From assembly GCF_947488135.1 (NCBI RefSeq), contig NZ_CANKYW010000007.1:124001-188000 (forward strand): a stretch of 64,000 bases of DNA. The letters are read 5' to 3'. The DNA is from an uncultured Marivita sp. (GTDB lineage Bacteria > Pseudomonadota > Alphaproteobacteria > Rhodobacterales > Rhodobacteraceae). Positions 13,350 through 47,946 of this stretch are shown here, piece after piece (the stretch's first letter is position 1; each line of letters opens with the position of its first letter). The notes beneath the pieces are model-generated. The model was given only the letters and a program-made list of their open reading frames with translations. It did not search any database and had not been told where the DNA came from. A program made the position numbers and the translations under genes.

Positions 13350-14612
13350 CTAGCGATCCATCCGACCGAAAACGACACTGGCATTGGTTCCGCCAAACCC
13401 AAAGCTATTGGACAGGGCATACCGGATCTCGCGTTCACGCTTGGCGTTTGGCGCCAGATCGACAGGCGTGTCCACCGCAGGCGTATCGAGGTTCAGCGTC
13501 GGCGGCGCCACCTGATCGCGGATCGCCAGGATCGAGAAAATCGCCTCGATCGCCCCCGCAGCCCCCAGCAAGTGCCCGGTGGCCGATTTGGTCGACGACA
13601 TCGTGACCTTCGAGGCCGCATCCCCCATCATCCGCTCGACCGCACCCAGCTCGATAACATCCGCCATCGTCGAGGTGCCATGCGCGTTGATGTAATCCAC
13701 GTCCTTGGGCTCGATGCCCGCATGCTTCAATGCCGCGCGCATCGACCGCTCGCCGCCTTCGCCGTCCTCGGAGGGCGCGGTGATGTGATAGGCGTCGCCC
13801 GACAGCCCGTATCCACAGACCTCGGCATAGATCTTGGCACCCCGAGCCTTGGCGTGCTCGTATTCCTCAAGCACCACGATGCCAGCACCTTCGCCCATGA
13901 CGAACCCGTCGCGGTCCGCGTCATAGGGACGGCTCGCCGCCTGCGGATCGTCGCCCCGCTTGGTCGACAGCGCCTTACATGCGTTGAATCCGGCAATTCC
14001 GATCTCGGAAATCGCCGCTTCGGCCCCGCCCGCGATCATGACATCGGCATCGCCAAACATGATCAACCGCGACGCATCACCAATCGCGTGCGCGCCCGTC
14101 GAACAGGCCGTCACAACCGAATGGTTCGGCCCCTTGAAGCCGTACTTGATCGACACATTGCCCGAGATCAGGTTGATGAGCGCACCGGGGATAAAGAACG
14201 GCGACACCCGCCGCGGCCCCTTGTCCCGGATCAGAAGCGCCGTCTCGGCAATCGAATTAAGCCCGCCGATCCCCGATCCGATCATCACACCGGTGCGCAA
14301 CCGGCTTTCCTCGTCCTTGGGCATCCAATCCGCATCGCGCACCGCCTGATGCGCCGCCGCCAGACCGAAGAGTATAAACTCATCCACCTTCCGCTGCTCT
14401 TTTTTCTCGAGGTAGGTGTCGGGGTTGAATGTCCCGTCGCTGCCGTCACCATAAGGCACTTCGCAGGCATAGGTCGTGGCAAGATGGCTTGCATCGAACT
14501 TGGTGATCGTGCCCGCCCCGGACTGCCCGTCCAGAATGCGGCTCCAGCTCGCCTCGACCCCGTCGGCCAGCGGTGTCACCAATCCCAAGCCTGTCACAAC
14601 TACTCGACGCAT
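13350..14612 (-). CDS. fabF: Beta-ketoacyl-ACP synthase II
   Basis: A 420-residue KAS II that condenses malonyl-ACP with acyl-ACP in fatty acid elongation. The catalytic triad is intact: Cys170 in VVTACSTGAHAIGDA, His311 in NAHGTSTMADVIELGA, and His347 with Lys342 in STKSATGHLLGAAGAIEAI. The start MRRVVVTGLGLVTPLADG is canonical. The acyl carrier protein gene usually found just upstream is absent; a repeat-bearing intergenic region and a glycosyltransferase gene lie there. Confidence 0.97.
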   Translation of the reverse strand: MRRVVVTGLGLVTPLADGVEASWSRILDGQSGAGTITKFDASHLATTYACEVPYGDGSDGTFNPDTYLEKKEQRKVDEFILFGLAAAHQAVRDADWMPKDEESRLRTGVMIGSGIGGLNSIAETALLIRDKGPRRVSPFFIPGALINLISGNVSIKYGFKGPNHSVVTACSTGAHAIGDASRLIMFGDADVMIAGGAEAAISEIGIAGFNACKALSTKRGDDPQAASRPYDADRDGFVMGEGAGIVVLEEYEHAKARGAKIYAEVCGYGLSGDAYHITAPSEDGEGGERSMRAALKHAGIEPKDVDYINAHGTSTMADVIELGAVERMMGDAASKVTMSSTKSATGHLLGAAGAIEAIFSILAIRDQVAPPTLNLDTPAVDTPVDLAPNAKREREIRYALSNSFGFGGTNASVVFGRMDR

Positions 14613-14727
14613 GGTGTTGCCCTTCCCTCGAATGCACTTGCCCGCTCTTACCCCGTTCGCGCCGGAAGCCGCAAGAGTCGAGCCGACCCCGTGGACATTC
14701 TTCTCAGCCTCCGCCGCAGAGCCCCGA

Positions 14728-14767
14728 TGTTTCCGTCAACGGAAACAGACGATGCGTCAACGCATCG
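14728..14767. repeat. 40-bp twin-palindrome repeat, copy 1
   Basis: Two adjacent perfect palindromes two bases apart: a 20-bp one (TGTTTCCGT-CA-ACGGAAACA, 14728-14747) and an 18-bp one (CGATGCGT-CA-ACGCATCG, 14750-14767). Both share the core CGTCAACG. The same unit occurs again 104 bp away and, in reverse orientation, at 46765-46804. It lies in the gap between fabF and the glycosyltransferase gene. Confidence 0.85.
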
Positions 14768-14831
14768 CCACACCCCCAAACTATAGTGGAAAACCCACAC
14801 GGCGCACCCCGACAAACCGTCCCCAAGACCC

Positions 14832-14871
14832 TGTTTCCGTCAACGGAAACACACGATGCGTCACCGCATCG
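14832..14871. repeat. 40-bp twin-palindrome repeat, copy 2
   Basis: Same architecture and length as copy 1. The 20-bp palindrome (14832-14851) is identical; the second palindrome CGATGCG-TCAC-CGCATCG (14854-14871) has one changed base in the loop. It ends five bases from the stop codon of the glycosyltransferase gene, so it could act as a terminator-like or mRNA-stabilising stem there, though no T-run follows. Confidence 0.85.
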
Positions 14872-14876
14872 TCGCG

Positions 14877-15683
14877 CTAGCCCCACCGCGCGCCCAGATC
14901 GGTCTTGGCCCGGTCCACCCAGTGCTCCTGCAACCACGGCGTCGGCTTGGCGTACCGGATAAACGACCCGCGATATCCCGCGATCGCTTCGGGCATCTTC
15001 GGTCGTCCATGGAAACAGACCACTTTCGCCTCTTCGGGCAGGCGCGCCGCGTGCAGGTAATTGCCCGGAAACGGGTTGCAGTCGTACTTGAAGCTCACCA
15101 CCCAATTATCTGGGATATATGCGAAAACACCGTTTCCCATTGCCTTGTGCGACGTGTAGCGCTGCTCCGATCCCCGCGCGATTTCAACCTCGCGATAGGC
15201 GTCCGCCGCAAGATCGTCATAGAGGAACCCATGCACCGCCGGATCATACCGAAACACCGATCCGTGCCCCGTGGGCCGCCCCTTGCGCGCTTCGGTCCAG
15301 TCATGCCGCATGACCACATGCCCCGGTGCCAGCGTCAGGAGATCGTCCAGCGATCCGGTGATGACCACGTCCAGATCGAAGCCCAGAACCGGCCCCTCCA
15401 GATCCGGGATCAGCCCCGGCCTGAACAGCGAAACCTTGCGCATCGCCCCCTGCCGGTTGGCGACTTTCAGCGCGGCGGCCATCGGCTCGGCAAAGGGCTC
15501 CACCGGCAGGTCCAGCACCTCGACCTCCGGATGCAATCCCTCGGCATGGTCCGTCATGCACAGAAACCGCACCGGACAGGACAGGTTGCGCCGCACCCCG
15601 GAATAGAGCCGGTTCACGTATTCCGGCCCGAAAAGTGTGCCCCACTTGATGCAGGCGACTGTGGCGATGGATGGCATGGTCAT
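14877..15683 (-). CDS. Putative glycosyltransferase (GT8-like, DxD motif)
   Basis: A 268-residue protein with features of a nucleotide-sugar glycosyltransferase: N-terminal ATVACIKWGTLFGPEYVNRLYSGVRRN, then GFDLDVVITGSLDDLL with a DxD-type motif (residues 103-105) expected to bind metal and sugar nucleotide, and VVCFHGRPKMPEA near the C-terminus. Two ATGs two codons apart compete; I use 15683. No signal peptide is seen, so it should act in the cytoplasm on envelope or surface glycans. Acceptor and donor are unknown. Confidence 0.7.
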   Translation of the reverse strand: MTMPSIATVACIKWGTLFGPEYVNRLYSGVRRNLSCPVRFLCMTDHAEGLHPEVEVLDLPVEPFAEPMAAALKVANRQGAMRKVSLFRPGLIPDLEGPVLGFDLDVVITGSLDDLLTLAPGHVVMRHDWTEARKGRPTGHGSVFRYDPAVHGFLYDDLAADAYREVEIARGSEQRYTSHKAMGNGVFAYIPDNWVVSFKYDCNPFPGNYLHAARLPEEAKVVCFHGRPKMPEAIAGYRGSFIRYAKPTPWLQEHWVDRAKTDLGARWG

Positions 15684-45358: not shown

Positions 45359-46756
45359 ATGGCCACCCAAAAACTCTATGCAGGCGCCAAACTGCGCGAG
45401 ATCCGCACCCGACTTGGCATCACACAGCGCGATTTCGCGGGCAAGGTGAACGTCTCCCTGCCCTATCTGAACCAGATGGAGAACAACAAGCGCCCGCTTT
45501 CGACCACGGTCGTGCTGGCGCTGGCGCAGGAGTTCGGCGTCGATGTCACCGAGCTGGGACAGGGCGATGCAGAACGGATGATCTCGGACATGCGCGAGGC
45601 GCTGGCCGACCCGGTTTTCGCCGATGCCGCCCCACCCATCGCCGACCTGCGCCTGACGGCCTCGAATGCGCCCGGCCTCGCCCGCGCGTTTCTTGAGCTG
45701 CACCGCGCCTACCGTCAGACCCACGAACGGCTCGCCTCGCTCGACGAGGCGTTGGGCCGCGAAGGCGCGCAGTTGCAACCGTCCCCCTGGGAAGAGGTGC
45801 GCGACTTCTTCCACTACTGCGACAACTATATCGACGCCGTGGACAAGGCGGCCGAGCGCGTGGCGACCAAGCTGACCGGCTCGGACCGGGTGCGCGCCGC
45901 CATTCGCGGGCTGGAGAACGAGGGCCTGCATGTGCGCTTCGCCAACGTGCCTGACCTGCGCCGCTTTGACGAGCTGCGTCAGGAACTGACCCTGTCCTCC
46001 CTCGCCGCACCCGAAACGCAGACCTTCCAGATGATGCTGCAATTGGCGCTGGCGCGGCACGGCAAGCTCTTGGATGCCACGCTCGATCTCGGCCGGTTCC
46101 AGTCCGACGCCGCCCGCGACATCGCGCGGTTGGGTCTGGCCAATTATTTCGCCGGAGCCGCCGTGATGCCCTATGGCCAGTTCCTTCAAGCCGCGCATGA
46201 CACGCGGCACGATCTGGAGCTGATGGCCCGCCGCTTTGGCGCGTCCATCGAACAGGTGGCGCACAGGCTGTCCACGTTGCAGCGGCCCGGTGCCAAGGGC
46301 ATCCCGTTCTTCTTCGTCCGTGTCGATCAGGCGGGCACCATCACCAAGCGCCACTCGGCGACGCGGCTTCAATTCGCCCGCTTCGGCGGGGCCTGTCCGC
46401 TCTGGAACGTGCACCGCGCCTTCGAGACGCCGGGCCGGTTCCTGCGGCAACTGGCGGAGACGCCGGATGGGGTGCGGTATATTTCACTGGCCCGCGACGT
46501 ATCCAAAACCGGCGGCCATTTCGGCGCGCCGGTGCGGCGCTACGCGATTGCGCTGGGATGCGAGGTGAAACACGCAGGCGCCTTGGTTTACGCCGACGGG
46601 CTGGACCTGACCCGTGACGGCGCGTTTGAACCCATCGGGATTTCCTGCCGCATCTGCGAGCGGGCGAATTGCCACCAGCGGTCCGTGCCACCGCTGGAGC
46701 GCAAGCTGACGATCCAGACCCACCGGCGCGGGGTTCTTCCCTACGAATTGAGTTGA
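45359..46756 (+). CDS. pccR: Short-chain fatty acyl-CoA regulator (ScfR family, PccR-like)
   Basis: A 465-residue regulator. N-terminal XRE-type helix-turn-helix (residues ~10-63, LREIRTRLGITQRDFAGKVNVSLPYLNQMENNKRPLSTTVVLALA), a central IrrE/ImmA-like region without a clear HExxH (~230-310), and a C-terminal DUF2083 domain with ISCRICERANCHQRSVPPLERKL (Cys-x2-Cys-x4-Cys). The family senses propionyl- or related acyl-CoA; location beside pccB/pccA and the TGCAAA boxes support the PccR assignment. It has 14 bp between box cluster and start. Confidence 0.93.
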   Translation: MATQKLYAGAKLREIRTRLGITQRDFAGKVNVSLPYLNQMENNKRPLSTTVVLALAQEFGVDVTELGQGDAERMISDMREALADPVFADAAPPIADLRLTASNAPGLARAFLELHRAYRQTHERLASLDEALGREGAQLQPSPWEEVRDFFHYCDNYIDAVDKAAERVATKLTGSDRVRAAIRGLENEGLHVRFANVPDLRRFDELRQELTLSSLAAPETQTFQMMLQLALARHGKLLDATLDLGRFQSDAARDIARLGLANYFAGAAVMPYGQFLQAAHDTRHDLELMARRFGASIEQVAHRLSTLQRPGAKGIPFFFVRVDQAGTITKRHSATRLQFARFGGACPLWNVHRAFETPGRFLRQLAETPDGVRYISLARDVSKTGGHFGAPVRRYAIALGCEVKHAGALVYADGLDLTRDGAFEPIGISCRICERANCHQRSVPPLERKLTIQTHRRGVLPYELS

Positions 46757-46764
46757 GCGCGGGG

Positions 46765-46804
46765 CGATGCATTGACGCATCGCATGTTTCCGTTGACGGA
46801 AACA
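46765..46804. repeat. 40-bp twin-palindrome repeat, copy 3 (reverse orientation)
   Basis: The unit appears in reverse order: the 18-bp palindrome CGATGC-ATTGAC-GCATCG (one base changed) at 46765-46782, two bases, then TGTTTCCGT-TG-ACGGAAACA at 46785-46804. It starts nine bases after the pccR stop, followed by a GGGGGT-TCC-ACCCCC hairpin. Presence here and next to another gene end suggests a 3'-end association. Confidence 0.85.
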
Positions 46805-46826
46805 CTTGGGGGTTCCACCCCCAAAC

Positions 46827-47946
<1,120 letters not shown>

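Follow-up and report, generated by a model that had tools for sequence, protein, structure and literature searches.

A dispersed twin-hairpin element past stop codons in Marivita and its possible role at mRNA ends

A stretch of 64,000 nucleotides (the window), part of the 4.47-Mb draft genome of an uncultured Marivita species, was found to carry three copies of a small element built from two hairpins. The explanation that we favor, with a probability of roughly 0.55 and resting on sequence, is that this is a Marivita-specific dispersed twin hairpin, placed past stop codons and inherited at fixed loci, which would act in the transcript to define or protect mRNA ends. We infer action in the transcript: RNA polymerase would be halted or made to pause at the hairpins, with or without the help of Rho, and/or 3′ exonucleases would be held off there, and the pair would thereby both define and protect mRNA 3′ ends. 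Each strand folds into the same pair of hairpins, which would allow a single element to serve the mRNA ends of either strand. Its ancestral spread was probably REP-like or by local duplication. More tentatively, at many of its gene ends Marivita may have exchanged classical U-tract terminators for a dispersed, orientation-neutral hairpin pair that would work in both directions without a U-tract and is maintained through compensatory evolution. It has long been asked if REP-like repeats are selfish DNA or function as mRNA ends. In Marivita, a single family can be traced locus by locus in as many as 17 genomes: copies are present or lost, multiply in tandem, and change both arms in step. These locus histories, together with the scarcity of terminators at convergent ends, make the question testable in marine bacteria.

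Architecture and distribution of the twin hairpin

The copies lie at 14728-14767 and 14832-14871, in tandem with a period of 104 bp, and inverted at 46765-46804, all as an earlier note on this DNA had described. That note took them for perfect palindromes; they are in fact stem-loops, as the centre (TCAA/TTGA) is not self-complementary. Each unit consists of two abutting hairpins with loops of 4 nt. Read in the sense of the adjacent gene, hairpin 1 (GATGCG-NNNN-CGCATC) comes first, then a short spacer and hairpin 2 (GTTTCCG-NNNN-CGGAAAC). The features are as follows:

14854..14871, minus strand: gene-proximal copy, hairpin 1 (loop GTGA), 5 nt past the end of gene 14877-15683(-)
14832..14851, minus strand: gene-proximal copy, hairpin 2 (loop TTGA)
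14750..14767, minus strand: second, tandem copy, hairpin 1 (loop TTGA)
14728..14747, minus strand: second, tandem copy, hairpin 2 (loop TTGA)
46765..46782, plus strand: third copy, hairpin 1 (one broken pair), 8 nt past the end of gene 45359-46756(+)
46785..46804, plus strand: third copy, hairpin 2
46806..46824, plus strand: optional third, G+C-rich hairpin TTGGGGGTTCCACCCCCAA behind hairpin 2, its tail separated by an IS110-type insertion

The gene at 14877-15683(-) had no Pfam match; beyond hairpin 2 of the second copy (14728..14747), position 14612(-) is the start of a fabF-type gene for a beta-ketoacyl synthase. The common CGTCAACG centre that had been proposed for both hairpins is present in hairpin 2 of all three units and in hairpin 1 only at 14728-14767. 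In the unit at 14832-14871 the centre of hairpin 1 reads TCAC, and at 46765-46804 its innermost pair is broken (GATGCATTGACGCATC). Allowing up to three mismatches, six strand matches to the hairpin 2 unit were found in the window and none in dinucleotide shuffles, while the hairpin 1 unit was matched six times against a shuffle mean of 0.29 and maximum of 2. For RNA of either strand, folding predicted a pair of distinct hairpins (-20.4 to -24.5 kcal/mol, z -4.1 to -5.8). A search of the window against Rfam gave no match at gathering scores; for 14650-14950 only ncS025 was returned, at 17.3 bits and thus far under its cut-off of 46.

A second repeat stands right behind hairpin 2 and forms a hairpin of its own, for example at 46806-46834 in the window. 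Its rough form is T(T)GGGGGCYNNGCCCCCAA-ACCCCCGRGGTATTT-NNNN-CCAAAGAAG or CCAGAGAAG. As a crude test for this third hairpin, GGGG was found within 21 nt after hairpin 2 in 50 of 209 copies from the genus. Behind the third copy, this G+C-rich element is interrupted between CCCCCGAGG and TATTTTCAGCCCAAAGAAGCC by an IS110-family insertion (about 46835-47926) whose transposase, at 46943-47809(-), matches PF02371 and PF01548. The insertion is absent from five orthologous loci. Published studies (PMC1525189, PMC11187229) have reportedly dealt with IS elements that target REPs and with target choice in IS110/IS1111.

Across the whole genome the hairpin 1 hairpin was found at 36 distinct places with up to one mismatch (none for a reversed control pattern), and 34 of these belong to 50 full twins, so the two hairpins do not occur mainly independently of each other. 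The twins were selected from matches to a covariance model (R1) built from 30 twins; the count of about 50 comprises the first 49 model matches plus the one at C1:1220355 and leaves out C1:75805, which lacks hairpin 2, as well as opposite-strand and half matches. In every one of the 30 model twins, the distance between the hairpin centres is 21 or 22 nt, where 17-26 was permitted and ties were resolved toward 21 nt. A length of always 40 bp, as first described, therefore holds for the three window units and not genome-wide.

With some 50 twins at home and matches throughout the genus, the element is far from being confined to three copies. R1 matched all 17 Marivita genomes searched and only one of 44 genomes outside the genus (G018, confirmed by a second search). 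An exact twin pattern, searched in one genome per species, was found in 104 stretches; among the 80 of these with listed titles, all that carry a genus name are Marivita, and the rest are named only as Alphaproteobacteria or Rhodobacteraceae. Among 294 other genera of the family, with one genome each and 21 candidates scored per genome, three had one or two matches (G118, G221, G263), and the G018 match was not recovered in this search; in all, at least four genera outside Marivita have sporadic matches. A core-spacing pattern limited to the 22-nt distance gave single matches in 5 of the 294 genera, a number equalled by its reversed control. When abutting hairpins of any kind were scanned for, Marivita stretches totalling 375 kb yielded 24 (shuffles 1.3), several of these stretches having been chosen around elements and at least 4 of the 24 pairs being unrelated, vs. 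none in 241 kb taken from other genera in 13 stretches (shuffles 1.0). An element common to the whole family was rejected on account of these sporadic matches, and a plasmid or phage origin was rejected since no match was found in plasmid and phage collections. Among the matches listed in searches of the open-licence literature on Marivita, Rhodobacter, and Roseobacter repeats and on Rhodobacterales and alphaproteobacterial palindromic repeats, no description of the twin element was found.

Two of the outside pairs may be distant kin of the Marivita element. In G018 (L092), directly past an apparent stop codon, as read by eye, a hairpin pair has other stems (AAATTCCG, AAATTGCG); its centres (CGTCGACG and CGTGGACG) are similar and lie 22 nt from each other. 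In G221 (L283), GTTTGCG and GATGCG stems are combined with centres 24 nt apart. In addition, a pair near 10045 of L281 has entirely different stems (AACGCCCGTCGACGGGCGTT, GAAAGCCGCGTCGACGCGGCTTTC) with the same CGTCGACG centres and 22-nt spacing.

Placement at gene ends and neighbouring terminators

Clustering at 3′ ends, which the earlier note proposed to check, was borne out in both the home genome and the genus, where copies almost always lie just past gene ends. None of the 50 twins in the home genome lies wholly within a gene, though a few overlap the last codons of one, as judged by a custom gene caller trained on the window. By context, 26 are between convergent genes, 15 are with a single gene (behind it in the direction from hairpin 1 to hairpin 2), 6 are against one (following a gene of the opposite strand), 1 is between divergent genes, and 2 have one side unknown. 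For the genus, 209 copies were collected, each required to have centres 21 or 22 nt apart and one hairpin with 7 perfect bp; 15 of them were later removed as the G+C hairpin had been paired with hairpin 2, and the remaining 194 were linked by similarity of either flank into 64 locus families. Of these families 28 are convergent, 16 with, 17 against, none divergent, and 3 unknown, and therefore the element is placed at gene 3′ ends with no favored orientation. Before filtering, the stop codon of a gene upstream in sense preceded the hairpin 1 core by a median of 12 nt (166 copies), and hairpin 2 preceded a downstream start by a median of 133 nt (80 copies).

Further analysis examined terminators at gene ends, taking any hairpin pair 20-23 nt apart and not this family alone. 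With one end counted per gene family, a separate U-tract terminator was found at 1 of 27 convergent ends with a pair vs. 19 of 61 without (p = 0.005), and at 1 of 20 codirectional ends with a pair vs. 18 of 157 without, which is not significant. The raw counts with and without a pair were 3/49 vs. 33/105 for convergent and 5/46 vs. 29/266 for codirectional ends. Before matches overlapping the pair itself were excluded, codirectional ends with a pair were the higher (18/60 vs. 38/378), and in nine gene families with both states no contrast was visible. The scarcity of terminators at convergent ends suggests that the pair does the job of a terminator or of an mRNA-end stabilizer. The pair itself mostly lacks the form of an intrinsic terminator, in which a G+C-rich hairpin is followed immediately by a U-tract; it mostly has about three Ts within the arm of hairpin 2. 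A loose hairpin-plus-T rule overlaps the pair in 24 of 125 gene ends that have one, and a minority of pairs could be read as terminators.

Tests of which strand is folded were weak. Unpaired cells comprised 25 G-T, 16 A-C, and 61 other mismatches. By orientation, "++" copies had 10 G-T vs. 3 A-C and "--" copies 4 vs. 3, which is not the reverse. A bias of the hairpin 2 loop for UUGA over UCAA (p 0.004 and 0.04) was gone once each locus was counted once. The counts by orientation, the loop-bias tests, and the flank-tag counts given below include the 15 copies that were later dropped.

Paired change, inheritance, and rival explanations

Changes in the arms of the stems were found to be matched. 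In an alignment of 30 sequences, 96.9% of cells are paired vs. 82.5% when shuffled, double-change cells number 63 vs. 18, and 9 of 16 pairs are altered on both sides; none of 500 shuffles reached these three values, with hairpin 1 being partly fixed by the search. Hairpin 1 variants in other copies include GACGCG..CGCGTC and CATCCG..CGGATG. Moreover, a pair-to-pair stem change was found in 24 of 37 locus families with several members. Within families, 8016 comparisons gave 576 cases in which both arms differ vs. 80 expected, and 484 of the 576 lead from one Watson-Crick pair to another, compared with 0-29 when the arms are slid by one or two bases; these counts include tandem copies, and the species pairs in them are not independent. 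Ungapped identity in the locus families is 94% in the core and 45% in the 20 nt outside.

Three loci were followed by eye across the genus. The fabF gap, in 17 genomes, has a single copy in 10 (altered loops or broken pairs occur in G003, G004, G005, and G016), two tandem copies in G000, the home genome, and in G001, four in G012, and a diverged but foldable copy in G011; G008 is ambiguous, and the element is absent from G006 and G015. In these last two (L129 and L130), the gap shares a different motif: TTCACCAGAATTTAATAGAGA and, behind it, a hairpin whose arms are CAGATTTTTC and GAAAAATCTG. Locus A, present in 16 genomes with no orthologue in G009, kept the element in 11, with a flawed hairpin 2 in G007, G008, G011, and G013; it has decayed in G002, G005, and G016 and is absent in G003 and G015. 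At locus B (17 genomes), it is kept in 9 (G016 with mismatches) and diverged in G008, and 7 genomes, among them G005 with remnants, are not comparable as the gap or the neighbour differs. Taken together, the three loci show that the element is inherited yet dispensable.

A selfish origin deserves the closest attention among the alternatives, although we regard it as rather unlikely. Here a REP- or MITE-like repeat, scattered by a transposase or HUH enzyme, would have landed or survived only at gene ends with no host function, its hairpins serving mobility. This agrees with a dispersed, genus-limited distribution, with tandem arrays (104 bp in the window; three copies 103 bp apart at L202), with a copy number of 0-4 at one locus, the fabF gap, and with a placement resembling that of known REPs (PMC3733652). 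However, the earlier suggestion that a transposase elsewhere mobilizes the element found no support in a search for RAYTs (Y1_Tnp, PF01797), the one transposase type covered, as the home genome gave no match. Such genes occur in 4 of the 17 Marivita genomes, and the search of 8 of the 10 RAYT loci returned (L104-L113) found no full element in any of the 8, only a single half-hairpin match (E 0.52). RAYT mobilization was rejected on these grounds. Also against a selfish origin, G001 and G012, about 90% identical, share two stretches of about 94 and 11 kb in which 4 and 2 sites coincide. In these roughly 105 kb only the number of tandem copies differs, with positions matched by arithmetic and one lone 6-bp hairpin left uncounted. 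Pair-to-pair changes at orthologous loci further imply constraint on copies already in place.

Since the strand tests for an RNA role are weak, a role at the DNA level retains some probability, albeit a low one. Two dyads 21-22 bp apart, or two helical turns, could bind a dimeric protein (gyrase-, IHF-, or ParB-like), perhaps to absorb supercoils between converging genes. The fixed centre distance, the common near-palindromic GTYRAC core, the lack of an orientation preference per locus, and the abundance between converging genes would all suit such a site, and the protein binding proposed in the earlier note likewise keeps some probability. Against it, the stem letters vary freely if both arms vary together, a matching that independent half-sites do not need; these changes at orthologous loci favor pairing within a strand. 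Template switching at quasi-palindromes, a neutral mutation process, would likewise be expected to yield paired arm changes and free loops without selection, but seems very improbable, as it leaves unexplained the gene-end placement, the constant 21/22 spacing, the 94% core vs. 45% flank identity, and the scarcity of terminators at convergent ends.

Comparison with known repeat systems

Intrinsic (Rho-independent) terminators (Miura 2018, PMC6060812) share with the element the position of inverted repeats right past stop codons. Unlike them, the Marivita element mostly has no U-tract other than some three Ts within hairpin 2 and forms two hairpins that belong to a dispersed homologous family.

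Several features support the REP-like character proposed in the earlier note: the copies are dispersed, lie at gene ends, occur in tandem, and have compensatory changes in their arms. In the broad sense, REP-like elements are palindromic, of 20-40 bp, intergenic, high in copy number, and mostly at ORF 3′ ends, all of which applies here. The usual number of REP copies is above 100 according to Nunvar 2010 (PMC2817692), and about 50 is lower. GTAG and CGTC REPs, according to Di Nocera 2013 (PMC3733652), are dispersed short stem-loops with complementary stem changes, found downstream of ORFs in convergent and unidirectional gaps and also as dimers; CGTC REPs are mostly alphaproteobacterial and have no known transposase. 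The Marivita element resembles these in size, dispersal, stem variation, and 3′-end placement, and differs from what is described there in having no conserved unpaired tag and in combining two different hairpins in fixed order and spacing. Of the 209 copies, 7 have GTAG and 1 has CTAC within 14 nt before hairpin 1; after hairpin 2 the numbers are 3 and 5. CGTC was found in 7 before and 29 after, and GACG in 22 before and 11 after, and no column of the flank profile was fixed; these counts cover CGTC and GACG, not TGTC or CCTC, and CGTC within a loop was not counted as an end tag. In addition, a RAYT gene flanked by the repeats, as in GTAG REP/RAYT systems, was found neither in G000 (no PF01797 match) nor at the eight loci.

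BIMEs and RAYT-linked REPs, in which REPs are regularly spaced and alternate in orientation (Nunvar 2010, PMC2817692), resemble the element in their composite palindromic units, tandem arrays, and taxon-specific occurrence. The Marivita element, by contrast, has two distinct hairpins, and its own genome has no RAYT. Given that it shows the features of REP-like repeats, and neither the tags nor the RAYT link, the twin hairpin is best placed as a REP-like element distinct from both the GTAG and the CGTC REPs.
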